Positions 134 through 32,813 are shown, counted from the first letter of the stretch. The stretch: 32,813 nucleotides of DNA from an uncultured Bacteroidota bacterium (GCA_903847585.1 CAINEC010000155.1:1-32813); one strand, 5' to 3'. Made by a program: numbers and translations. The notes: generated by a model from the letters alone, not told the origin.

Positions 134-267
134 GCATAACGGTTTCGGGCTTGGCGAAGGTGGCGATTTTCACCACAAATGTTGATGCGGAGAACCAAAC
201 TTTGATTAACCACAAATGTGTCTGCGGAGCACAGAACCGCCACTTTTGCCAAACCCGTGTTATGCCC
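134..267 (-). repeat. attC-like recombination element A
   Basis: This 134-bp element is nearly the same as the one at 2465-2600: 114 of 118 bases agree between the core bases (141-258 against 2474-2591). Its outer arms, 147-165 and 238-256, form a 19-bp imperfect inverted repeat (GGGCTTGGCGAAGGTGGCG against CGCCACTTTTGCCAAACCC). Between them are two related segments, each able to form a small CCGCA/TGCGG-type hairpin. Read leftward, it begins GGGCATAAC (267-259) and ends GTTATGC (140-134), the placement of R'' and R' in integron attC sites. The classical GTTRRRY consensus is met only at GTTA. The strand given is the cassette-coding direction. Confidence 0.75.
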
Positions 268-2472
268 AGTACTTCTTGTCATTCGTCCGTTTTTTCAGTC
301 TCAGATTCGTCTTCGTCAGGAAGCATAAAGTCTAAAAACAACAACTCTGTTTTAGCGTAGTCGTCTTCAAATTTAAGGTTCCATCTTTTCTCCATAAACT
401 CAATTAGATTCAGTCCACGTTCTAATATGTTGTCGGGATTCCATTCTTCATATGTCGAAACCTCAATTTCTGAATGTGAGCCGTCAGAATATCCTTGCCT
501 TATTTTCTCTTTTCTTTCGTTATAACGTGGATTTTTCTTGTCCACAAAACAGTCATTTTGTAAACTTGAATTTATACTTTGCGATAATGGAAGTAAATTT
601 CCTAACGTCCCTTGAAAAAAGTTTATTTCAGCTTTTTTGTAGCCTTTAAAAGACTCTTTCCAGCATTTGTTGTCAGGCGTTTGAGGATAAATATGCTCAA
701 TTGAAATTTTGTCTTTTTCTCCTTTTATAAATAGCTTCCAATCTATCTTTTGGCTTCCTCTTTGTCTTACTTTGTCCATTTCATATTCGTACAAGAAATA
801 ACGTAAACCATTCCAATAGTAAAAGCCACCGCCATTTTTAAATTTCTTGTCAATAAATTTTTGAAAATAGGTGTAATCAAAGAAATTATCTGTTGTGTTT
901 TCAGGTGTGTAAAAACAATAACTCATTCGCTGTTCAAGGCGTTCAGTTATTTCTTCAACTGTCAATTCGTTATTTCTAAATTGTCTTGCTGCTCTATAAA
1001 ATTCACTGTTTCGATAGGTTGAAAAAGCTCTACTTAAACGGAATGTTATAAAAATAAATCTTTCAATTGCTTTGAATAGTTTAACCCTTTGCTTTGAGTC
1101 AACTTCACTTGATAAGAAAGAAACAGTTACAAGTGGTCGGAAATAAATGATACCAATTCGGTTCAATCGGTCTATCCACATACTTTCCGCATTTGTCAAG
1201 TCTGGATTATTAACTGGATTATGAGTGTTGTACCAATGAACAGCCGCAGATTTTAAACTATTTACATAATCTTCGATTTCTTTTGGCGAAAGTTTGGAAC
1301 GAAGTACAACTGTTTCTTCGTTTTCATTTTCTTCGACTTCTTCTTGGTCGGTTTCTTCGTTTTCTCTTACTTCTTCAAATTCTTGTAACGAACTTACAAC
1401 GACTTCTGTCTTTGCATAAATATTTTGAGGCGTAAATTTTTGCTCTAAAAGAAAACGTATGTAATCGTCTCCTTTCTCTCTTGTGTATTGAAAATACATT
1501 ATCCAATGAGCAACAAGAAAATCATCGTCATTCAAAGGGTTTTGTTTGTTTCTTCCAAGTTGATAATAAACTTCTTTCCAAGAATCGTTAATTTTTTCAC
1601 GAAGTGAAAAACGTTCATCTGTTTTTAATTCCTTCTCGTCATAAAGTGTTGTTAGATATATAAGTCTGTTCTTTAGAAGTTCAAGGTTTGAAAGCTTTTT
1701 CCCTCTGTTGTTCATTGTCTCAAAGGCAACGAACACATCAAAATCGTCACTAATTTCATAAACATTGAACATTAGATTTTGAGTTAGTTTTTTAAATAGT
1801 ATTTCAATTTCTAATATTCCATATTTTTCATAATAGTTCTTAAGGTTTTCGGCAAAAAAACGTTTGGCATTTTCAAGATTCAAAGTGTAAAAAGTCTCTT
1901 GAATAGTTCCGCTATTTGGTTCGTTGAAAATTCTGTACTTTAAAAATTTGAAACTTGGATTGTCAACTTCGTAACTGAATTTGTAAGTGCTGATAATAAA
2001 TTGAGGTGGTTTTTGAACAACCAAATATTCTTCTTTGATTGCTTTTAAACTAAACGAGCCAAGATATATTTCTTCGTCTTTTTTGTCTTTGTTTTCGGGA
2101 ATTGCTTTTAGAATTTCAGAAATTGCTTGTATGAAAATTACAAAAGTTGTCAACCTTTGCTGTCCGTCAACTACGTGAAAAGGTTTATAACCTCTGTCTT
2201 CCAATAACCACCTTTCGTCATTCCAATTATTCCAAACATTTCGGTCAACTTTTTTTAGCGATAAAAGTCCAGTGTAGTGAAATCTATCGGCTGGAAGATT
2301 TACAACGTCTTCCCAAAAGTCTTTTAATTGTCTTTCTGTCCAAGCGTAACCACGTTGATAGTCTGGAATTTTAAAAATTCTGTCCTTGAAAATGTTCTTT
2401 AAAGATTCTAATTCATTCATTTTTTGTCTGTCTGTTTATGGTTTGCACGGTCGCTCTTAGTATTGGGCATAA
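140..2472 (-). mobile_element. Gene cassette 2 (GmrSD nuclease)
   Basis: This is a putative mobile unit of about 2.3 kb with one gene. Read leftward, it opens with TTATGCCCAATACT (2472-2459) and, at the far end of the gene, carries AGTACTGGGCATAA (273-260) before element A. The two ends are reverse complements over 15 bases with one mismatch when the flanking G/C is counted. In integrons a cassette's R'' pairs with its own first bases in just this way. The gene stops 11 bases from the element. Boundaries assume the integron-type cut between G and TT. Confidence 0.65.
279..2420 (-). CDS. GmrSD-type restriction nuclease (DUF262-DUF1524 fusion)
   Basis: The 713-residue protein has the GmrSD layout. 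An N-terminal DUF262 (ParB-like, GmrS) domain carries IPDYQRGYAW near residues 18-27 and VDGQQRLTT near 83-91, the nucleotide-binding and hydrolysis motifs. The C-terminal DUF1524 (GmrD) HNH nuclease domain carries SIEHIYPQ near 570-577 and TLGNLLPLS near 605. An acidic Glu/Asn linker lies near residues 350-375. Known GmrSD enzymes cut modified phage DNA (type IV restriction), so phage defence is the likely role; the target here is inferred. The gene is the only one in its cassette, with 38 bases between its start and element B and 11 between its stop and element A. All key motifs look intact. Confidence 0.88.
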   Translation of the reverse strand: MNELESLKNIFKDRIFKIPDYQRGYAWTERQLKDFWEDVVNLPADRFHYTGLLSLKKVDRNVWNNWNDERWLLEDRGYKPFHVVDGQQRLTTFVIFIQAISEILKAIPENKDKKDEEIYLGSFSLKAIKEEYLVVQKPPQFIISTYKFSYEVDNPSFKFLKYRIFNEPNSGTIQETFYTLNLENAKRFFAENLKNYYEKYGILEIEILFKKLTQNLMFNVYEISDDFDVFVAFETMNNRGKKLSNLELLKNRLIYLTTLYDEKELKTDERFSLREKINDSWKEVYYQLGRNKQNPLNDDDFLVAHWIMYFQYTREKGDDYIRFLLEQKFTPQNIYAKTEVVVSSLQEFEEVRENEETDQEEVEENENEETVVLRSKLSPKEIEDYVNSLKSAAVHWYNTHNPVNNPDLTNAESMWIDRLNRIGIIYFRPLVTVSFLSSEVDSKQRVKLFKAIERFIFITFRLSRAFSTYRNSEFYRAARQFRNNELTVEEITERLEQRMSYCFYTPENTTDNFFDYTYFQKFIDKKFKNGGGFYYWNGLRYFLYEYEMDKVRQRGSQKIDWKLFIKGEKDKISIEHIYPQTPDNKCWKESFKGYKKAEINFFQGTLGNLLPLSQSINSSLQNDCFVDKKNPRYNERKEKIRQGYSDGSHSEIEVSTYEEWNPDNILERGLNLIEFMEKRWNLKFEDDYAKTELLFLDFMLPDEDESETEKTDE

Positions 2473-2600
2473 CGTTTTCGGGCTTGGCGAAGGTGGCGAT
2501 TTTGACCACAAATGTTGATGCGGAGAACCAAACTTTGATTAACCGCAAATGTGTCTGCGGAGCACTGAACCGCCACTTTTGCCAAACCCGTGTTAGCAGC
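2465..2600 (-). repeat. attC-like recombination element B
   Basis: This is the second copy of the foldable element at 134-267, with the same 118-bp spacer between core bases and the same 19-bp arms (2480-2498 and 2571-2589). Read leftward, it begins GCTGCTAAC (2600-2592) and ends GTTATGCCC (2473-2465). The left flank belongs to the start of the GmrSD cassette. The right flank is the reverse complement of the start of the lipoprotein cassette at 3225-3217. The interior is conserved while the flanks differ and match their own cassette. That distinguishes it from a simple transposed MITE. Confidence 0.75.
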
Positions 2601-3224
2601 TGTGCTTATTTCTGTATACATAAAATTTGTCCGCATGGAATTATTAATGTGTCGTTTATTTTAAGCCTTAAAGATATTGCTGATGTTTTTTCACGTGAAG
2701 TAAGAAGTTCAGTTTCATAAGGAGTTGTCGGGTCGGGATATTTTGTGTCGGTCAGAACCCCAAAGGTCAGTACGCATTTTTCTCTCGGGTTTAATACTTT
2801 GCTCAAGTGCACTGGGTTGTCAATTTCAAAAGCAAGAAACCTTTTTAATTCCTTTGATATTCCTCCTGTATCAAAGTGTTGCTCGTTAGGTGTCAAGTGT
2901 CTGGGCAACAAAAAAAATTTAGATTTAATGCTATCTTTTAAATTCATTCCCATCTCTGAGAAACCGATTTCTAGTTGAATTGAAACTGTTGAGTCGTTCC
3001 AAATGGTTATGGTATTATACCTGTAATTATATTCTGCTCCAGAAGAATCAAAATATTGCATTCCTTGTCTTGGGCCGTTCTCAATGTAAAGTCCAGATTG
3101 CTTTTCACCTGCTCTATTAACATGGTTGTCTGCATTGCCCGAACAACCATAAAGGCAAATTAAAAATACAAGTCGAAATAAATGTTTAACTGTCATGTTG
3201 TTGTTGTCTTGGCATTGCTGCTAA
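2473..3224 (-). mobile_element. Gene cassette 1 (lipoprotein)
   Basis: This 752-bp unit lies next to the recombinase gene. Read leftward, it begins TTAGCAGC (3224-3217). Its gene ends five bases before GCTGCTAAC (2600-2592), the exact reverse complement of GTTAGCAGC, and element B follows. It has a single gene in the same orientation as cassette 2, with almost no spare DNA. Being first in the array, it would be the most recent insertion if the system works like an integron. Confidence 0.6.
2606..3196 (-). CDS. Cassette-borne lipoprotein of unknown function
   Basis: The 196-residue protein starts with a short charged N-terminus, a hydrophobic stretch (FRLVFLICLYG) and a lipobox ending at Cys18 (LYGC followed by SGN), so it should be a membrane-anchored lipoprotein. 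The mature part looks beta-rich, with a repeated pattern of polar and hydrophobic residues, and ends IPCGQILCIQK. I do not recognise the family. The start is 28 bases inside the cassette boundary and no Shine-Dalgarno sequence is visible, which is usual in this phylum. It sits directly downstream of the recombinase and may be transcribed from it. Its neighbour suggests accessory cargo, but a defence role is not shown. Confidence 0.75.
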   Translation of the reverse strand: MTVKHLFRLVFLICLYGCSGNADNHVNRAGEKQSGLYIENGPRQGMQYFDSSGAEYNYRYNTITIWNDSTVSIQLEIGFSEMGMNLKDSIKSKFFLLPRHLTPNEQHFDTGGISKELKRFLAFEIDNPVHLSKVLNPREKCVLTFGVLTDTKYPDPTTPYETELLTSREKTSAISLRLKINDTLIIPCGQILCIQK

Positions 3225-3317
3225 CTACCTTATACACGCTATAAAACTTCCTTTTATTTCCGTATTAGGATGTATTGGCGCAGTTTTATTTCGTTTGTAC
3301 TAAAGTAATATAAATAT
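3217..3317 (-). other. Candidate attI-like boundary between recombinase and first cassette
   Basis: GCTGCTAAC at 3217-3225 (leftward GTTAGCAGC) marks the start of cassette 1. The roughly 90 bases between it and the recombinase stop carry no copy of the 19-bp arms and no gene. This is where an integron would keep its attI platform. Read leftward, the junction is AAGGTA followed by GTTAGCAGC, so only the GTTA core is shared with the attC-like sites. The attI call rests on position alone. Confidence 0.4.
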
Positions 3318-4157
3318 CTATAAATCATCAAAAGGAGATTTTATTTTTTGAATACTATGGGTGCTAACATGTGTGTATATCTCAGTGGTTTTACTAGAAC
3401 TATGTCCCAATAATTCTTGTATATATCTTAAATCCGTTCCGTTCTCTAGTAAATGGGTAGCATAGCTATGCCGTAACCAATGAAGCGTTACCGGCTTATT
3501 AATTCTTGCCTTATTCAATGCTTGATTAAGAACTAACTGTAAGCTCCTTTCGCTATATTGTTCTCCAGGATTTTGTCCTTCAAATAACCATGTTTTCGGT
3601 TTGTAAGCTCTATAATATTCTCTTAACATACTTATCAGTTTATCGCTTATTGGTAGCATGCGGTCTTTCTTTCCTTTTGATTGTCGTATGAATAATAAAT
3701 GTCGATCAGATAATACATCCTTTAATGTCAGATTTAAAAGTTCACTGCGTCGTAAGCCACATGCATAAATTATACTTAACATCGCCCTGTGTTTTAGGTT
3801 TATCGGCGACTCTAAAATGGACTTCACTTCCAATTTGCTTAATACATTCGGTAATCGTTTTTCTCTTCTTGGTCGTTGTATAAAATCTACTTCCATTGTT
3901 CTGTTAAATCGATTTCTGTAAAATAATTTAATAGCATTTATAACCTGGTTTTGATAACTAGCAGAATAATTATTTTTAAGTATGTGCTCGTTGTTGAATT
4001 TAATTAAATGTTCGATTGTTAATTGTTCGAGATTTTCTGTCGCATTAAATTTGAAAAATATTTGTAGGGCATCACTATATGTTTTGATTGTGTTTTTGCT
4101 ATAGCGCCTGTAATTCATGTAGCTTTTAAATGCTTCAAGCTGTTGTGTTGTATTCAA
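3318..4157 (-). CDS. Tyrosine recombinase of the integron-like array
   Basis: This 279-residue protein has an N-terminal SAM-like core-binding domain (about 1-85) and a C-terminal catalytic domain. The first catalytic Arg is in YACGLRRSELLNL (near 136), the Lys in the KGKKDRMLPIS beta-hairpin, the HxxR box is HWLRHSYATHLL, the second His is in LGHSSSKTTEIYTHV, and Tyr in that segment is the nucleophile. The tail KSPFDDL resembles the RSPLD tail of integron integrases. The extra alpha-helical insert that marks IntI between patches II and III is absent: only about 20 residues separate KDRMLPIS from WLFEG. It reads in the same direction as the cassettes, whereas most intI genes are divergent. 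The start is a TTG; an ATG at codon 13 would cut into the core-binding domain. Confidence 0.9.
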   Translation of the reverse strand: MNTTQQLEAFKSYMNYRRYSKNTIKTYSDALQIFFKFNATENLEQLTIEHLIKFNNEHILKNNYSASYQNQVINAIKLFYRNRFNRTMEVDFIQRPRREKRLPNVLSKLEVKSILESPINLKHRAMLSIIYACGLRRSELLNLTLKDVLSDRHLLFIRQSKGKKDRMLPISDKLISMLREYYRAYKPKTWLFEGQNPGEQYSERSLQLVLNQALNKARINKPVTLHWLRHSYATHLLENGTDLRYIQELLGHSSSKTTEIYTHVSTHSIQKIKSPFDDL

Positions 4158-4396: not shown

Positions 4397-5275
4397 CTAT
4401 TCCGTCTTTGAATTTTTTGGTTTGATTACTTTTGAATTTTTATTTTCTTTTAGTGCTTTTTTTGCATTCACCGATGTAACCACTTTTTTGCCTGTTTGTG
4501 TTTCCAATTCTAATCGTGCTACGTTTGCTACATTTCCACCACGTTTAGCAATTTTTGAACTTTATTCAAAAGTTTCAGGATTTTCGGTTTGTGAAATATC
4601 TTTGGTAGAAGCCTCCGCAAGCATACTTAAAATTAGTTCGGTGTTTGTCATATTGTCCCGAAGATTTTCTTTTTTTAATCCTTTGAGAATTTTATTTTCT
4701 TTAGTTGTATTACCCGACCAAGCCTTGGTAATGATGTCTGTCAAGGTTGCAAATTGAATCCCCTCTTTCAATCCTCTTTTTTTCCATTCGTCGGTGAGTT
4801 CTTTACGAATTTCAATACTTTTCAGTCGCTGGTTTATCCAGTTTTCAGAATAGCCCAATTGCATATATTGCTCTAATGCTCTGTCAATGGTAATTTCAGG
4901 GTCTTGCATTTCGTCCAAACGTTCCGATGCCACTTGGGCCAACCATACTTTAAACGGCTCGGCCTTCGGAGATGGAATAGACTGTATTAAACGAAATAGT
5001 TGTTCAGTATCAGCTACGTCTATCAACCTCATTTTTCCATCAGCGGCTTGCATTTTCAAACCGTTACAATTTGTAACGGTTTCATTTCCCTCTGCCAAAA
5101 GACGTTTTTTTAAAACTCTCCAATATACTTGTGGATTGCTGCTATCTGAGAGAATTGCAATTACATCAACAATGGCAAAATACCATTTTTCTAGGTCTTC
5201 GTCCCAATGGGTACGGACTTGTTTATGTTCAAATATTTTGACCGCGTTTTCCTTTTTCATCGATGTGTTATTCAT
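4397..5275 (-). pseudogene. Bro-N (phage antirepressor-like) gene with an in-frame TAA
   Basis: The first 237 codons encode a Bro-N family protein of the kind annotated as phage antirepressor in Bacteroidota (VRTHWDEDLEKWYFAIVDV, later SIPSPKAEPFKVWLAQVASE). Reading stops at TAA 4564-4562 after NPETFE. The same frame then stays open for 54 more codons to a TAG at 4399-4397. These read SSKIAKRGGNVANVARLELE and then TGKKVVTSVNAK, which is the normal C-terminal tail of this family as I know it. One nonsense change therefore removes the tail; the shortened product could still fold. The ancestral stop falls exactly where the Sua5 fragment begins, so the gene fills the segment inserted between the two Sua5 copies. 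Confidence 0.75.
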
Positions 5276-6073: not shown

Positions 6074-7009
6074 TTCTTCGATGTGAACAGCAGCGTTACT
6101 TAAATGCTGCATCAATTCATTGCTATCGCCGTGAATGGTGTAAACTACTTTCGCTTCACTCTCTGTAATGGTATTTAGTAAATCGTGCCAATCGCTATGA
6201 TCAGATACCGGCAATTTAATATCATACCCTTCTTGTAATCGATCCCAGCCCGAAGCCATCCCTCGTAAGTAACCAATATCCGAAGCATATGATTGTAAAA
6301 CCAAGGGTGGCACGATGTAAATATTATTCGCCGTTTTCTTAAAGACCTGCTTCTGATAAGGTAACCATTCTCCTAAGTCAAATCCCGCTTCTTCATACAC
6401 GCGGTGGTATTTCGAAATTTTCGGATGAACCATGACTTTAAACTCCGGCTTTAAGTCAGCAAATAATCGTGTTAAACGTTGTGCCTTTCCTAACGCGTAC
6501 GCACCTACGATGTAATTCGTATTTAAGGCCGCATCGAAAGCTTTTAACGAATCTTCGTCGGCTGGATGGGTTTTCCCCTGTTGCGCAAACGTCGTTTCTG
6601 TAATGAGTACATCGCACTTCACGGTAACATAAGGCTCACACGACGCATCCGACTGTCGTTTGTAGTCGCCAGTGTAATTGATAATGCGCCCTTCATGCTT
6701 CCATACAATCTGTGCAGAGCCAAGCATGTGTCCCGCAGGAATAAATTGAAATGATACACCATCTACCTCAAACCATTCGTGGAATTCAGGAGTGATGACC
6801 ATATCTGCAAAATTGCGATAACGTGTGCGTAGTAAGCGAGCTGTATTTTTGGTGCAATAGACTTTCCCATGTCCTGGAACGGCATGATCGCCATGCGCAT
6901 GACTAACCACTGCGGTATGAACAGGGTGGGTGGGGTCAATCCAGATTTCTGTTTGCGGTAACTGGTAGCCGTTAGTATGTGCTATTAACGGCTTCGAATA
7001 ATCAGACAT
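6068..7009 (-). CDS. MBL-fold exonuclease-like protein
   Basis: This 313-residue metallo-beta-lactamase-fold protein has SHAHGDH (36-42, metal ligands), AGHMLGSAQI (92-101), NYTGDYK and a late SDHSDW motif. This set is typical of the beta-CASP-like exonuclease group often called mRNA 3'-processing or DNA-ligase-associated exonuclease. No ligase gene is in view, so the ligase-associated name is inferred from family resemblance. Its start overlaps the end of coaE by 8 bases, making it the last gene of the leftward nusB-coaE operon. It would be a cytoplasmic nuclease with two metal ions; whether RNA or DNA is the substrate cannot be told. Confidence 0.82.
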   Translation of the reverse strand: MSDYSKPLIAHTNGYQLPQTEIWIDPTHPVHTAVVSHAHGDHAVPGHGKVYCTKNTARLLRTRYRNFADMVITPEFHEWFEVDGVSFQFIPAGHMLGSAQIVWKHEGRIINYTGDYKRQSDASCEPYVTVKCDVLITETTFAQQGKTHPADEDSLKAFDAALNTNYIVGAYALGKAQRLTRLFADLKPEFKVMVHPKISKYHRVYEEAGFDLGEWLPYQKQVFKKTANNIYIVPPLVLQSYASDIGYLRGMASGWDRLQEGYDIKLPVSDHSDWHDLLNTITESEAKVVYTIHGDSNELMQHLSNAAVHIEEL

Positions 7010-16483: not shown

Positions 16484-18133
16484 TTATCGTATCAGTGTTA
16501 TAGTTCCAAGAATTTTCTTTTTAATTTTTGACCCTTCCGCATCAAAGGCTAAATAGTTCAAACGATAAACGTATGCGCCTATTGGTGCATCAACACCATT
16601 AAACTTTCCGTCCCATCCTTTTGAAGCATCTTCCGAGTAAAAAACAGTCTGCCCTCTACGATTTTGAATTCTGAAATTAAAATTCTCTACGTTATTAATA
16701 TTCGGTAAAAAGATATCATTGATACCATCTTCATCAGGAGTAAATGCCGATGGAATAAAAATATTCGGTTCGCATATTTCCTTAACACTGATGACTGCTG
16801 TGGCTTTACATCCGTTCGCTTTTGTTGCAGTAAGCGTGTAAATAGCAGGCGCAATAACAGTAATATTTTGACTTGTTTCTCCGGTAGGCTGCCATAAATA
16901 ACTATCAGCTGCAGGACCATTTAAATACAAGGTATCACCATTAAAAAAACAATAGGTGGAATCAGTACCTAAATCAAATAAATCATTCTCGAGATAATCA
17001 GAAACAACAACGGTGTCACTCGTAAAACAACCAGTGTTGTAAACATCAACATAATAAACTCCTGTATCTTTTACCTGAATAAAAGAAGTAGTGTCACCTG
17101 TATTCCAATTATAAAATACAGCATCCGAAGCAAAACCATCTAATTTTATAGAATCGTTTAAGCAAAGTAAAGTATCAGGACCGAGATTAATAACCGGAGG
17201 ATTTACAAATGTCACTCTTACGGAATCGATTTTTGTAATGCCGTTTAAGTAATAAGTGGTAGGCGTGTTAGGTGTCGCCACTAAAATTGGCAGTAGTGAT
17301 AGGGTGTCATTCGGATTATTAGAATCACTCCACCAAAAAGGAACATTTACAGTGCTAAATAAATTTAATACATCACCAGGACATAAAACACTGTCGCCAT
17401 CAATTTCAACGACTTCATTAACTGGTCTTACCACAACATCATCCACGTAATAATAAACTGCATCATCAAAATCGACACACCCTGAATTTTTTGCTCCGAA
17501 ATCTATTTTTTGTAGGAGAGGGGATGCATCATCTCTAAAGACTCCAATAGTAATATAGTTTTCCGTTCCCGTTGCCTGATATATTCCGGTGATTAACGTC
17601 CAGTCGCTTGTGTCACTAATAATATTCGGCGACTCTAAACTTGCTGGAAAATTGATAACCGATGTTCCTGCTTGTAAAGGAGCTCCATTTGAAAAATAAG
17701 CACCTAATCGGTTACAAGCATAACGACTACTATCTGCTAATAAAACCCAAAACTCCACACGATATAAATCGCCTGCTGTAAGTGTAACTGTCAATGGTGA
17801 TGAAATATACTCTCTTGCATTTCCGAAAGGGTCAATCGAGATTCCTGCATAAGCGTTGCCACCAACACGCACTTGCGCATAGCCTCCAACGTTAGTAGGG
17901 GTGTTTACATAATCACAAGGCAGAATTGGTAAGCTTGGTTGTGGTGCAAATAAATCAGGAGAAGCTCCCAATGGCACCCAAGGATTAGCTTTGTTTAATT
18001 GACCAGCTCCAGTAGGACTGCTACTGAAGTTTTCAAATCCTGGATTGGTCAATAAATTTTGAGCAAAAACAGGAGATAAGCTTAATAGCCAAAGCGCAAA
18101 AATAAATAATACTGATTTGTTACTTGACTTCAT
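16484..18133 (-). CDS. Secreted T9SS type B (gliding-associated C-terminal domain) protein
   Basis: The 549-residue protein has a signal peptide (VLFIFALWLLSLSPVFAQ), an N-terminal part starting NLLTNPGFE that looks like a carbohydrate-binding-type beta-sandwich (about 25-235), two or three Ig/PKD-like stretches with LGPDTLLCLNDSIKLDG and LGTDSTYCFFNGDTLYLNG, and the CHU_C/type B sorting domain at the end (IFIPSAFTPDEDGINDIF, GWDGKFNGVDAPIGAYVYRL, closing GTITLIR). It should be exported by T9SS. ATG 18133 is preferred to a TTG at 18145. It overlaps the upstream PorE-like gene by 14 bases. Confidence 0.9.
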   Translation of the reverse strand: MKSSNKSVLFIFALWLLSLSPVFAQNLLTNPGFENFSSSPTGAGQLNKANPWVPLGASPDLFAPQPSLPILPCDYVNTPTNVGGYAQVRVGGNAYAGISIDPFGNAREYISSPLTVTLTAGDLYRVEFWVLLADSSRYACNRLGAYFSNGAPLQAGTSVINFPASLESPNIISDTSDWTLITGIYQATGTENYITIGVFRDDASPLLQKIDFGAKNSGCVDFDDAVYYYVDDVVVRPVNEVVEIDGDSVLCPGDVLNLFSTVNVPFWWSDSNNPNDTLSLLPILVATPNTPTTYYLNGITKIDSVRVTFVNPPVINLGPDTLLCLNDSIKLDGFASDAVFYNWNTGDTTSFIQVKDTGVYYVDVYNTGCFTSDTVVVSDYLENDLFDLGTDSTYCFFNGDTLYLNGPAADSYLWQPTGETSQNITVIAPAIYTLTATKANGCKATAVISVKEICEPNIFIPSAFTPDEDGINDIFLPNINNVENFNFRIQNRRGQTVFYSEDASKGWDGKFNGVDAPIGAYVYRLNYLAFDAEGSKIKKKILGTITLIR

Positions 18134-27893: not shown

Positions 27894-30800
27894 TTATTCT
27901 ACAATCACTCTTATCTTTTCAAGTTTATTACTTGATTCTAATTGTAACAAGTATACTCCCTTAGCGAAATCAGAAACCTGAATGGTAGTTCTGTTAGCAC
28001 CAGCAGTAGCATTTAACGATTCAGTATAAATCAAACGACCAGCAGCATCAATCATTTTAACTGTTGTTGTTTCGTCGTTTTCTGAAGCAAATTCTACATT
28101 TAATAAATCATGCGTAGGATTTGGATAAGCTACCATTGATAACGTTCCAGTTTGTCCATTACGAGGGCAAGAGATATTGTTTACGGCTAATACTTTCACA
28201 GCTGAAAGGCCGCAGTTGTTGCTTGCTTTCACTGTTACAATACCGTTTGCTGAAGCAACCGCTGCATGAACAACTGTAATTGCTTTAGTGCCTTGTCCGC
28301 TAATGATACTTGCACCACCTGGAACTGTCCAAGTATAGCTTGATGCACCTTGTACGGTACTGATAGAGTAGTTTTCAGTGCTATTTGTACAAACAGTAGT
28401 TGATCCGTTGATACTTCCTGGTTGCGTAGGAACTAATTTCACTGCTAAACTTCTAACGTTACCAGTTCCGCAATTATTTACTGCTGCTACGGTTACGTTT
28501 CCTGTTCCAACGCTTGCACCAGAATAATTTACAACAATTGAATTTCCTGTTGTATTACCTGTGATTGTTGCACCAGCAGGAATAGTCCATGTATAGCTTG
28601 TAGCTCCATTTACCGCTGGGATGCTGTAAACTGCATTGGTTGCACCACATAATCCATCAACAGGTCCATTGATATTTCCTGGCGATGATAATGTATTAAC
28701 GGATACACTTCGAGAACGCGTTCCACTTGTTCCGCAAGCATTTGTTGCAGCAACCACGATAGTTGTACCTGTAAAGTTTTGTGGATATTGTACGGTGATA
28801 ATATTGCTGTTTCCTCCCGACAATACTGAAGTTCCTGAAGGGAATGTCCAGTTGTACCCTGAAGCTCTATTAACCGCCGCTATTGAATATGTTGCAATAT
28901 CACCAGGGCAAGCTGCCTGCGGTCCTGAGATAGAAGGAGGATTCACTGGCGCACTTACTTGAGCAGAGAATGTTAAGCAAGATTGAGCTGAGTTAGCACA
29001 TCCGTTACTATTATTTGCTGTTACACAAATTTGTCCTGTTAATCCTGCTTGAACATATTGATCTAAGAACTTAACTGCGATGCTACTTCCTGTTGCATTA
29101 CCAATAATCTGAACTCCTGTAGGTACGCTCCATGTATAAGTTGCAGCTCCAGCTACTGGTGTTACAGAATATACATATTGGTTAGAACCTGGTGTGCAAA
29201 TATTAGTTGATCCGCTGATTGCACCTGCATTGATTGGAAGTGGTGTAACGTTAACAGTAATTGAACTTGTTGCAGGAGTACATGGTACCGGTGCATCTGT
29301 TGTTAAAGTTAATGTTATAGCACCTGCTGTTGCATCTGCTAATGATGGAGTATAAGTAGCATTTAATGTAGTTGCATTTGGTGAGAATGTACCTGTACCC
29401 GATGTTGACCATGTTCCTGTTGTTGCTCCACCGCCAATTGATCCGTTAAGATTTACAGCTTGTGCTTCGCATGCATTTAAGTTGCTACCGGCAAATGCTG
29501 TTGGAGGATTCGAGCAAACACAATTTTCATCAACTAATCCATCGCAATCTTCATCAATGCTATTAAAGCAAATTTCAACTGCATTCGGATGAATTGTATT
29601 GTTGTTGTCGTCACAATCACCTGCTAATGCTACATAGCCTGTTGGAGCTCCTGTGCAATTACTTACTGTTGAAGATAAAATTCCGTATCCATCACCGTCA
29701 GCATCTGCATAATATGTCACCGTAGGATTAATAGTAGCATTTAAGATTTCAGTATGACATCCATTTACTGATGAGTATGTTCCAGACTGTGTATATGTCT
29801 GACCATTTACTGACCATGTATAGCTATCACAAACATTTATTGTAGTTGTATTGCTAGTACTTGGTGTAATCGTTAACGTTAAGATATCAGTATGGCAACC
29901 ACTCACTGAAGAATATGTTCCTGATTGTGTATACGTAGATCCGTTAATGTTCCATGTATAAGAATCACAATTTGATGCAGTGTAATTTGTGGTTGCTGGA
30001 ATAATTGTTAAGTGTAAGATAGTAGTAACGCATCCACTTACCGAAGTATAATTACCTGATTGCGTATACGTATTACCGTTAGCAGACCATGTGTATGATG
30101 TACATTCTGTAACGCTGTTGTTTACTGTGCTTGATGGTGTTATTGTCAAGTTGATAATTTCAGTATGACATCCACTTACCGATGAGTATGAGCCTGATTG
30201 CGTATACGTAGAACCGTTAGCTGACCATACATAACTGTCGCAAGCATTAACATTCGTTGAATTGCTTGTTGAGTTAGTAATTGTCAGGTTCAATACTTTC
30301 GTTAAACATCCAACTACAGCTGAATAGCTTCCAGATTGCGTGTAAGTTGTACCGTTAACTGTCCATACATAACTGTCGCAAGCAGATGCACTCGCACTTT
30401 GAGTTGTTGATGGTGTAATTGTTAATTGTAGGATTTCTGTATGACATCCAGTAACTGATGAATAGTTTCCTGTTTGTGTATACGTTGTTCCATTTACAGA
30501 CCAAGTATAGTTGTCACATGCACTTGCCACTGTTGTGTTGCTTGTTGAATTAACAATTGTAATATGTGCAGTTACTAATGAGTCGCAACCTTTTGTAGTT
30601 GTATAGTTGTGAGTGTAATCGCCACTACTTGTAACAGTAGTACTCCATGGTAATTGATAGCTATCGCAACCTGTTGCAGTAAATTCGCTGCTAGTAGGAG
30701 AGAAGATGGTGATGTGAGCAATTACTGTTGAGTCACAACCTGTACTACCACTGTATACATAGCTATAATCGCCTGATGCCGTTACAACTGTACTCCATGG

Positions 30801-32813
30801 TAATGTATATTGGATACATGCTGAATCTTTGTATTCATAAGAATTCAAGTATGCGATTTTTGCATTTCCAATACCGCAAGTATTAACACCAGCTGCAGTA
30901 ATTTTTCCATAAGTGAATGATCCACTTGAGAAGTCAACTACAATCGATGTGTCATTTGAACTTCCAATAATTGAAGTACCTGCTGGAACTGTCCATACAT
31001 AACTTAATGCACCATTTACTTTATTGATTTTGTAAGTTCTTGTATTTGATACGGTACACATACTATCACGTTGGCCAAATATAGAATCTGGAGCAGCTAA
31101 TACGGTTGGAACTATAGTTCTCATACGCGTATTGCTTACACCGCAAGAGTTAGAAACATTTACAGTGATTGGTCCACTCGTGAATGCTTGTCCGTAAGCA
31201 ATAAGAATTGTGTTTGCATTGCTTGATACAAGTGTTGTGTTATTTGGAATTGTCCAATTATATACTGAAGCTCTTGCTACTACAGGAATAGTATGAGTTC
31301 CTGTGTCTCCCGGACATGCAGTATATGGACCTTGAATTGAAGCTGGCTGATTAGGCGCAGAAACGTTTACAGAAATTGTCATGCAAGATGGTTGTGAACT
31401 GAAACAGCTATTAGCATTGTTAGCAGTTACACAGATATTACCATTTAATCCTGGTTGAACATAAGCATCTAAGAATTTTACATCAATACTATTTCCTGTA
31501 GCCGATCCTTGAATTGAAACTCCTGTAGGAACATTCCATGTGTATGAAGTAGCACCTGCAACTGGAGCAATCGAATAAGTAAATACATTGCTTAGTGGCT
31601 TACAGATATTTGCTTGACCTGTAATTACACCGGCGTTAGCTGGCAATCCTGTTACGTTAACAGTAATTGAACTAGTAGCTGGTGTACAAGGTTGAACGGC
31701 ATCAGTTGTTAATGTCAATGTTACAGATCCTGCAGTAGCATCTGCTAATGAAGGAGTGTAAGTAGCATTTAATGCATTTGCATTGGAGAATGTACCTGTA
31801 CCTGAAGTTGTCCATGTAGCTGTAGAAGCACCACCACCAATAGATCCGTTTAATGTAATTGCAACTCCTTGGCAAGCATTCAAGTTAGTTCCTGCATTAG
31901 CTGTAGAAGGATTTGTACATACACAGAATTCATCTATTTGTCCGTCGCAATCGTCATCGATATTGTTGAAGCATATTTCTATTGCACCTGGATATACACT
32001 AGATGCGTTATCATCACAGTCTGTTGAGTTGCTTACATAACCTGTAGGCGCTCCTGTACATGATGTTGTTGAAGTTGCAGCATTACCATATCCGTCACCA
32101 TCGGCATCAGCATAATATGTTTGCGTAATATTGATTGTTAAGTTCAATGTATAATCCTGACAATTTGAGTTGTAAGAATAAGTTCCTGATTGCGTATATA
32201 CCTGTCCGTTAGCCGACCATGTATAGGTGTCGCAGACAGAAGCATTGGTTACAATCGCAGCTGCTGGAGATCCAGTGATGTCATACTGACAAGTAGTTCC
32301 ATTCCAAGTTGCAGTCTCATAACATGCTAATGTTGGCATTGCAGGTTGAGAACCTGATACTACCCAAGCACATGATGATGTGTTGAAAGATGCTGTTTCA
32401 TAACAAGCAAGTGTTGGCATTGCAGGTTGAGTTCCTGTAACATCCCAAACGCAAGTTGATGAATTGAATGAAGCAGTTTCGTAACAAGCAAGTGTTGGAG
32501 TTGTTGGAATTGTTCCTGTTACATCCCAGTTACAAGTTGTTGTGTTGAATGAAGCAGTTTCATAACAAGCTAATGATGGCATTGCAGGCTGTGTTCCTGT
32601 AACATCCCACTGACATGTTGATGAATTAAACGAAGCTGTTTCATAACAAGCTAATGTTGGCATTGCAGGTTGAGAACCTGTCACTACCCAAGCACAAGTT
32701 GATGTGTTGAATGATGCTGTCTCATAACAAGCTAATGTTGGCATTGACGGTTGAGATCCTGTAACATCCCAAACGCAAGTTGATGAATTGAATGAAGCAG
32801 TTTCGTAACAAGC
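27894..32813 (-). CDS. Giant repeat-rich T9SS type A surface protein (5' end outside window)
   Basis: The frame runs from the stop at 27894 to the window edge, giving at least 1639 residues; the signal peptide is not seen. From the N-terminal side it holds seven 27-residue repeats (LACYETASFN, TCxWDVTG) at 32813-32259, a CDTYTW unit, and a MopE-type calcium-binding motif (YYADADGDGYG, DCDDN, DDDCDGQIDE) near 32120-31930. Ig/PKD-like domains follow, then eight repeats of about 46 residues (CDSYxW, TYTQSGxYSSVxGC), a second MopE-type motif near 29720-29530, a second set of PKD-like domains, and the sorting domain (VAYPNPTHDLLNVEF, FAKGVYLLQLE). It is probably a cell-surface adhesin stiffened by calcium and disulfides; that role is inferred. 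All repeats stay in frame. Confidence 0.92.
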   Translation of the reverse strand, partial: ACYETASFNSSTCVWDVTGSQPSMPTLACYETASFNTSTCAWVVTGSQPAMPTLACYETASFNSSTCQWDVTGTQPAMPSLACYETASFNTTTCNWDVTGTIPTTPTLACYETASFNSSTCVWDVTGTQPAMPTLACYETASFNTSSCAWVVSGSQPAMPTLACYETATWNGTTCQYDITGSPAAAIVTNASVCDTYTWSANGQVYTQSGTYSYNSNCQDYTLNLTINITQTYYADADGDGYGNAATSTTSCTGAPTGYVSNSTDCDDNASSVYPGAIEICFNNIDDDCDGQIDEFCVCTNPSTANAGTNLNACQGVAITLNGSIGGGASTATWTTSGTGTFSNANALNATYTPSLADATAGSVTLTLTTDAVQPCTPATSSITVNVTGLPANAGVITGQANICKPLSNVFTYSIAPVAGATSYTWNVPTGVSIQGSATGNSIDVKFLDAYVQPGLNGNICVTANNANSCFSSQPSCMTISVNVSAPNQPASIQGPYTACPGDTGTHTIPVVARASVYNWTIPNNTTLVSSNANTILIAYGQAFTSGPITVNVSNSCGVSNTRMRTIVPTVLAAPDSIFGQRDSMCTVSNTRTYKINKVNGALSYVWTVPAGTSIIGSSNDTSIVVDFSSGSFTYGKITAAGVNTCGIGNAKIAYLNSYEYKDSACIQYTLPWSTVVTASGDYSYVYSGSTGCDSTVIAHITIFSPTSSEFTATGCDSYQLPWSTTVTSSGDYTHNYTTTKGCDSLVTAHITIVNSTSNTTVASACDNYTWSVNGTTYTQTGNYSSVTGCHTEILQLTITPSTTQSASASACDSYVWTVNGTTYTQSGSYSAVVGCLTKVLNLTITNSTSNSTNVNACDSYVWSANGSTYTQSGSYSSVSGCHTEIINLTITPSSTVNNSVTECTSYTWSANGNTYTQSGNYTSVSGCVTTILHLTIIPATTNYTASNCDSYTWNINGSTYTQSGTYSSVSGCHTDILTLTITPSTSNTTTINVCDSYTWSVNGQTYTQSGTYSSVNGCHTEILNATINPTVTYYADADGDGYGILSSTVSNCTGAPTGYVALAGDCDDNNNTIHPNAVEICFNSIDEDCDGLVDENCVCSNPPTAFAGSNLNACEAQAVNLNGSIGGGATTGTWSTSGTGTFSPNATTLNATYTPSLADATAGAITLTLTTDAPVPCTPATSSITVNVTPLPINAGAISGSTNICTPGSNQYVYSVTPVAGAATYTWSVPTGVQIIGNATGSSIAVKFLDQYVQAGLTGQICVTANNSNGCANSAQSCLTFSAQVSAPVNPPSISGPQAACPGDIATYSIAAVNRASGYNWTFPSGTSVLSGGNSNIITVQYPQNFTGTTIVVAATNACGTSGTRSRSVSVNTLSSPGNINGPVDGLCGATNAVYSIPAVNGATSYTWTIPAGATITGNTTGNSIVVNYSGASVGTGNVTVAAVNNCGTGNVRSLAVKLVPTQPGSINGSTTVCTNSTENYSISTVQGASSYTWTVPGGASIISGQGTKAITVVHAAVASANGIVTVKASNNCGLSAVKVLAVNNISCPRNGQTGTLSMVAYPNPTHDLLNVEFASENDETTTVKMIDAAGRLIYTESLNATAGANRTTIQVSDFAKGVYLLQLESSNKLEKIRVIVE
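29720..30840 (-). repeat. Tandem repeats of about 138 bp inside the giant T9SS gene
   Basis: Six units of about 46 codons, each with CDSYxW, TYTQSGxYSSV and GCHTEIL-type segments, follow one another. Two longer variants with LPWSTxVTxSGDY lie at the N-terminal side. Adjacent CDSY positions are mostly 138 bases apart. Units are diverged at DNA level, which points to an older array than the 81-bp one. Confidence 0.85.
32259..32813 (-). repeat. 81-bp tandem repeats with a 324-bp higher-order unit
   Basis: Seven units of 27 codons (the outermost cut by the window edge) repeat LACYETASFN...TC.W...TG. Unit types follow the order V-A-Q-N, V-A-Q, named by the residue after TC. The DNA at 32437-32489 and at 32761-32813 is identical over 53 bases, exactly 324 bases (four units) apart. 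The array probably continues beyond the window. Confidence 0.9.

Follow-up and report, generated by a model that had tools for sequence, protein, structure and literature searches.

Archaeal XerA and bacterial XerC/XerD recombinases act on one duplex dif site of ~28 bp, and the additional domain of integron integrases reads extrahelical bases, as established for VchIntIA (structure 2a3v). An IntI-specific additional domain around patch III has been stated to be defining for integron integrases (PMC9668308), and IntegronFinder 2.0 found only one complete integron in Bacteroidetes, that of Salinibacter ruber (PMC9024848). Here we analyze a locus in a 32,813-nucleotide stretch of DNA, referred to as a whole as the window, from an uncultured Bacteroidota bacterium (GCA_903847585.1, CAINEC010000155.1:1-32813). 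Read on the minus strand, the locus consists of a gene for a 279-aa simple tyrosine recombinase (the integrase, 3318..4157), an attI-like junction, cassette 1, cassette 2, and the start of cassette 3; the cassettes share the orientation of the integrase gene, each window cassette carries one gene in that same direction, and a 126-nt hairpin element lies at each cassette end. It is very probably a system that captures cassettes in integron-like fashion by means of a simple Xer-like integrase; as judged from its sequence, it functions in the manner of an integron without being a canonical one. The DNA itself shows the arms and hairpins, attI and the turnover there, the shared orientation, and the unit boundaries.

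The cassettes were delimited as TT...G units, cassette 1 (2473..3224) by attI and the first attC (attC1) and cassette 2 (140..2472) by attC1 and the second (attC2). The sequence-only reading of the window had proposed that the start and end of each cassette are private reverse complements, and its coordinates and bases are correct for both. The R' arm of cassette 1 (GTTAGCAGCAATGCC, 3211..3225) is complementary at 12 of 15 positions to the R'' arm (2592..2606); compared with the reverse-complemented end GTTAGCAGCTGTGCT (from 2592), the start (from 3225) shows nine matches, two mismatches, and three matches. For cassette 2, the R' arm GTTATGCCCAATACT (2459..2473) pairs with the R'' arm (259..273; reverse complement GTTATGCCCAGTACT) at 14 of 15 positions, as originally claimed, with position 11 as the sole mismatch. 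Over the 11 non-core positions, own pairs match at 8 (cassette 1) and 10 (cassette 2), and crossed pairs at 4.

The comparison of own pairs with cross pairs that the same reading had suggested was made on 159 non-redundant cassettes from 56 loci. They were cut from 306 attC sites, sought with a covariance model (R1) in regions from 40 relatives, in 79 named Bacteroidota loci picked with the integrase alignment A1, and in 17 further loci. Arms were scored over 10 variable positions, using bases that lie outside model R1 except for GTTA. The mean own match was 8.21/10, compared with 3.80 for permuted pairs (maximum 4.28 in 2000 permutations) and 3.95/10 for cross pairs inside the same array, which bears out the earlier expectation. 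Positions 1 to 3 are fixed, position 4 is identical in 94% of own pairs, and positions 5 to 9 in 85 to 92% (cross 27–53%); identity is 58% at position 10, 2% at position 11, and 79 to 82% at positions 12 to 15 (cross 31–50%). From position 16 on it is no higher than background, giving a sharp stop at 15. For 146 of the 159 cassettes, the longest open reading frame (ORF) is encoded by the cassette strand; the median cassette is 947 bp. The private start/end match is real, general, and cassette-specific.

The pairing length of six or seven bases that the sequence-only reading attributed to integrons is too low. In a class 1 control of just 13 cassettes, selected on positions 1 to 7 with a relaxed pattern (the strict GTTRRRY pattern kept only 8), pairing is full to position 8, 54% at position 9, and then at background. 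A second small control used canonical chromosomal integrons from this phylum; in its 62 pairs of consecutive sites, pairing extends to 11–12 with no break at 11. Private 11–12-base pairing, longer than the 7-base consensus, is seen in the canonical chromosomal integrons L267, L272, and L274–L280. Arms of more than seven bases were considered as a feature unique to the system described here, the Bacteroidia type, and were ruled out as such by both controls. Private start/end pairing is a general integron trait and is not, by itself, the system's unusual point. Pairing beyond seven bases alone is also canonical, but neither canonical control shares the distinctive feature of this type, an arm of 15 bases in which position 11 must not match.

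At position 11, A is found at the cassette start in 155/159 cassettes and G in the reverse-complemented end in 132/159; in the hairpin this pair is A-C on the top strand and a T-G wobble on the bottom strand. In the L-arm consensus, too, an A that never varies faces a C that almost never does, so that the bottom strand again has T-G. We infer that the wobbles may identify which strand recombines or serve as a point of contact for the integrase. With folding energies computed with DNA parameters for 118 circular sites, the bottom strand is more stable than the top strand in 110 of them (−30.6 versus −26.3 kcal/mol), and the circular site folds better than the in-array site in 116, with a mean gain of 7.9 kcal/mol. 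Where arms face neighbors' arms in the array, they match at 7.8/15 positions, no better than random pairs.

The shared element is mostly 122–132 nt long, with a minority of up to about 190 nt. Covariation is present in 19/19 predicted pairs of the hairpin, and Rfam contains no family for this attC-like element. In the window, attC1 (2470..2595, 126 nt) scores 99.2 bits (E 9e-22) and attC2 (137..262, 126 nt) 96.4 bits (E 4e-21) with R1, both being among the 48 attC sites from which the model was built; since R1 was built partly from loci that were later searched, matches there are not independent. The source genome holds at least 7 attC, window copies included. R''/R' and L''/L' pairing is present as in canonical integrons (19 covarying pairs and the R arm), and the unpaired spacer is about 4/0 nt in both kinds of attC. 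An ordinary canonical integron, in which the integrase would belong to the IntI family and attC would be a standard 59-base element, would account for this spacer and for the shared architecture of attI, attC, and cassettes. However, 108 of 122 folded bottom strands of the Bacteroidia type lack extrahelical bases, and the type shows no bias to the R'' side. Among canonical sites from this phylum, 2 of 53 lack them; single-base bulges occur in 51/53, and 101 of 102 bulges are on the R'' side. Among classical cassettes, R1 matched none except blaVEB.

The integrase itself gives a Phage_integrase match of 136 bits and an NF040815 score of 218.8 bits, under the cut-off of 220. Its score of 205 bits with the integron integrase model TIGR02249, which would also favor a canonical integron, is under the cut-off of 265 and comes in two pieces that skip model positions 179–237; the alignment to 2a3v (VchIntIA) similarly jumps from 181 to 243. 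Catalytic residues R136, K161, H226, R229, H252, and Y261 are invariant in 23/23 aligned homologs. The IntI-specific domain of ~41 residues is present in 0/105 integrase homologs, in which the spacing from the arginine motif to the HxxRH motif (GLRxxE to HxLRH) is 96–98 aa, versus 138 in 10 canonical IntI proteins of the same phylum; in the source genome's own Xer-type homologs it is 97–103 aa. In the phylogenetic tree the 13 canonical IntI proteins form one clade with support of 100/100 and the window integrase lies outside it, although with few outgroups and long branches the tree does not settle a sister relation to IntI. Because the integrase is without the IntI domain and attC is without extrahelical bases, both halves of canonical recognition, the protein domain and the flipped DNA bases, are missing together. 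We therefore consider a canonical integron very improbable. Many relatives (L011–L031, L167, L168) have open frames of 350–440 aa, beyond the 279-aa core, possibly due to an N-terminal extension.

The attI region (3226..3317) has the core GTATAAGGTA immediately before the GTTA of the first cassette. The motif [AG]TATAANNNAG/TTA sits about 100 nt 3' of the integrase, with half-sites TATAA/TTA about 5 nt apart. As in canonical attI, the site adjoins the integrase and has a predicted crossover at G/TT. A strict form of the motif, [AG]TATA[AT]NNN[AC]GTT[AG]N6A, with the position-11 A included, is present on the 3' side of the integrase in 29/55 loci, against an expectation of 0.05 from shuffled sequence and a value of 0.0 for other parts of these loci. 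A fragment 71% identical to the window integrase adjoins mef(C)-mph(G) on a Salmonella IncC plasmid (L166:6001-6501), with an attI-like motif at 6593.

The sequence-only reading had also held that flanks change with the cassette and not with the shared element, and that this reflects excision and insertion of circles and not transposition of miniature inverted-repeat transposable elements (MITEs). Genome G000 and its congener G002 are 95% identical over 1 kb before GTT and unrelated beyond, and the locus pairs L007/L079 and L092/L095 are 99–100% identical over 1 kb to the attI junction and become unrelated at GTT. A 955-bp cassette occurs, together with its attC, as two identical copies between unrelated neighbors in a single array. 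This turnover at attI and the duplicated cassette fit the capture of circles and exclude a MITE with constant ends, a conclusion supported at the sequence level; a published homology-free insertion with the predicted ends, discussed below, agrees with it, and both earlier claims hold up. MITEs or other transposable repeats that flank genes by chance would be expected to be dispersed, abundant, and hairpin-forming, as these repeats are. Nevertheless, they would be hard to reconcile with single-gene units, exact turnover at attI, and outer bases that follow the cassette and not the element: there is no constant terminal inverted repeat, terminal bases 5–15 being private to each cassette. Orientation is also set by the integrase. 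In the 79 integrase-bearing loci, 143/143 attC matches have the orientation of the integrase and 139 lie on its 3' side. This alternative is scarcely credible. The four attC matches that lie 5' of the integrase share its orientation nonetheless; they are L128:268 and 2221 and L099:1021 and 7249.

A further possibility is that the cassettes are double-stranded Xer/dif-like modules, whose duplex junction sites would be recognized without any role for hairpins. The Xer-like integrase, for which the best structural match is XerA, and the attI half-sites are compatible with such modules. The AlphaFold model of the integrase (pLDDT 84) is nearest in structure to archaeal XerA 4a8e (Z 24.3), followed by 5hxy (20.9) and IntI 2a3v (20.1). 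Look-alikes in the PDB were rejected as a guide to Xer versus IntI function, as structural matches do not separate the two. Under duplex recognition, the long covarying hairpins, the private own-pair arms, and the bottom-strand wobble rule would make no sense, and half-arms in the array derive from different cassettes. Instead of a constant, short dif-type duplex site, there is a long element with outer arms that vary per cassette. We regard Xer/dif modules as very improbable.

For the integron-like capture system, we propose the following sequence of events. A circular cassette carries one attC, and its single-stranded bottom strand would fold in the cell into a hairpin. In its R arm of 15 pairs, the first 15 bases of the cassette would pair with the last 15 of that same cassette, position 11 being a G-T wobble; the rest would comprise a small unpaired spacer and an L arm with 13 + 6 pairs. 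This private 15-base lock would close fully only in the circular cassette. The window integrase would bind the two arms in the manner of a Xer site and recombine the folded strand with double-stranded attI (GTATAANNNAG/TTA), cutting at G/TT, and the cassette would thereby land 3' of the integrase gene. After insertion, the first arm would meet the attC of the upstream neighbor, and the last arm would meet the start of the downstream neighbor. Because each arm then adjoins a neighbor, the in-array R arm is predicted to be mismatched and the site to fold about 8 kcal/mol less well, and insertion would therefore be favored over excision, a bias suggested by the folding models.

In a published experiment, aph(3')-IVb was acquired by Riemerella anatipestifer in the absence of flanking homology, and each time 27 bp of 5' sequence and 140 bp of 3' sequence came with it; the gene is carried by the RCAD0416 plasmid, and relE and hthR lie on either side of the insertion site (PMC13148043). 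The authors noted an attC-like fold, left the mechanism unresolved, and cited lnu(H) and blaRATA as parallels (PMC13148043). On the RCAD0416 plasmid, the 262-aa APH gene (16558–17346) lies inside a predicted cassette of 956 bp (16530–17485), and the published insert ends correspond to 16531–17486, equal in length and shifted by one base within a repeated GTT. A relE-HTH pair on this plasmid is a predicted cassette too. A Riemerella multiresistance plasmid (L265:1-17500) is mostly an array of such cassettes, with 13 attC and with aadS, tet(X), lnu(I), estT, aph, and others; no Bacteroidia-type integrase is found among its annotations. Riemerella tet(X) is a complete cassette (14/15, A/G at position 11, 127-nt attC), as is aadS (14/15), and in lnu(I) positions 1–14 match except for A/G at 11. 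A gene named xerD recurs adjoining tet(X) (PMC7473080, PMC11194056). In Acinetobacter, tet(X3) is preceded by a truncated homolog of the window integrase, at 50% identity, as well as by an attI-like junction, and a cut attC lies behind it. The tet(X) loci are L164:6700-8240, L163, and L170:4001-5335, where the 'tpnF/xerD' gene adjoining tet(X3) is the truncated window-integrase relative. Likewise, blaVEB-3 on an IncC plasmid is preceded by a truncated relative (48%) and an attI motif. In class 1 integrons, blaVEB-1 bears the Bacteroidia signature and has the only attC there that R1 recognizes (54.4 bits), which suggests that the blaVEB cassette may have been picked up by IntI1. The blaVEB loci are L165:6001-7755, L173:6001-7075, and L169:5004-6074, with VEB-1 among classical cassettes.

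Several points weigh against an integron-like capture system run by this integrase. The strict attI pattern was not found in about half of the 55 loci, and own matching is low for 19 of the 159 pairs of consecutive sites, probably because of an overlooked attC in between. The Riemerella paper assigns its insertion to no enzyme (PMC13148043), and recombination by the window integrase is deduced from sequence. The gain in folding of circle over array is also found in canonical integrons (54/56, 6.9 kcal/mol), which ruled it out as a feature unique to the Bacteroidia type; it is a general integron property.

Matches to attC (E up to 1e-4) were found in 79/100 relatives, and integrase homologs (E up to 1e-40, a threshold that may include other simple recombinases) in 57/100. 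Plasmid-borne forms are present in Chryseobacterium. Canonical IntI was found in 1/247 Bacteroidia genomes, versus 84/296 phylum-wide. It is likely that these loci represent a widespread Bacteroidia integron class without an extrahelical-base pocket, whose bulge-free attC is read via longer arms and conserved bottom-strand G-T wobbles, which surveys have missed and which has been a source of tet(X) and blaVEB cassettes in Gram-negative pathogens. If so, it would constitute a second solution to integron recombination. Integron surveys require the IntI domain, yet attC of this type occurs in most of the relatives searched. The system would also offer a ready explanation for the recurrent xerD by tet(X) and for homology-free gene uptake in Riemerella, and it makes testable the open question of which attC features are needed for strand choice without extrahelical bases.

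The cassette 1 gene (2606..3196) encodes a 196-aa protein without a family match. The cassette 2 gene (279..2420) encodes a 713-aa GmrSD-type (DUF262) protein with PF03235 and PF07510 and a PADLOC match to HEC-06 (E 3e-43), and an anti-phage defense role of the product is likely from these matches. Cassette 3 starts at 140 with its first arm GTTATGCGTCACCCA and runs off the contig end (1..139), with an ORF that opens at 106. Upstream of the integrase, on the same strand, a Bro-N domain protein is encoded at 4562–5275, and a gene for a 1616-aa repetitive surface-type protein is located at 27894–32744.

A search limited to open-access full texts, without subscription papers or preprints, turned up no account of such a system, and an earlier description elsewhere is possible. 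A close known group appears to be the 'integron-like' subgroup of simple tyrosine recombinases (Smyshlyaev et al. 2021, PMC8138268), and in the passages considered that paper reports no cassette arrays, attC, or attI for members lacking the additional domain. In the aph(3')-IVb insertion in Riemerella, the inserted unit equals a cassette of the Bacteroidia type, although the Riemerella paper names no integrase, attI, or cassette rule. The window integrase resembles archaeal XerA and bacterial XerC/XerD in fold and length, with no insertion, but those enzymes use one duplex dif site, whereas the window system is predicted to use folded cassettes. Like the integrons defined by IntI, attI, and attC (class 1 and superintegrons), it has arrays of one-gene cassettes in one orientation with attI at the array head, a hairpin attC, private R'/R'' pairing, and a predicted crossover at G/TT. 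Unlike them, it has an integrase without the IntI additional domain, an attC without extrahelical bases, and an array that adjoins the integrase gene at its 3' end. Its R arm measures 15 bp and carries G-T at position 11 of the bottom strand, compared with 8 bp in class 1 and an unbroken 11–12 bp in canonical chromosomal integrons of the same phylum.

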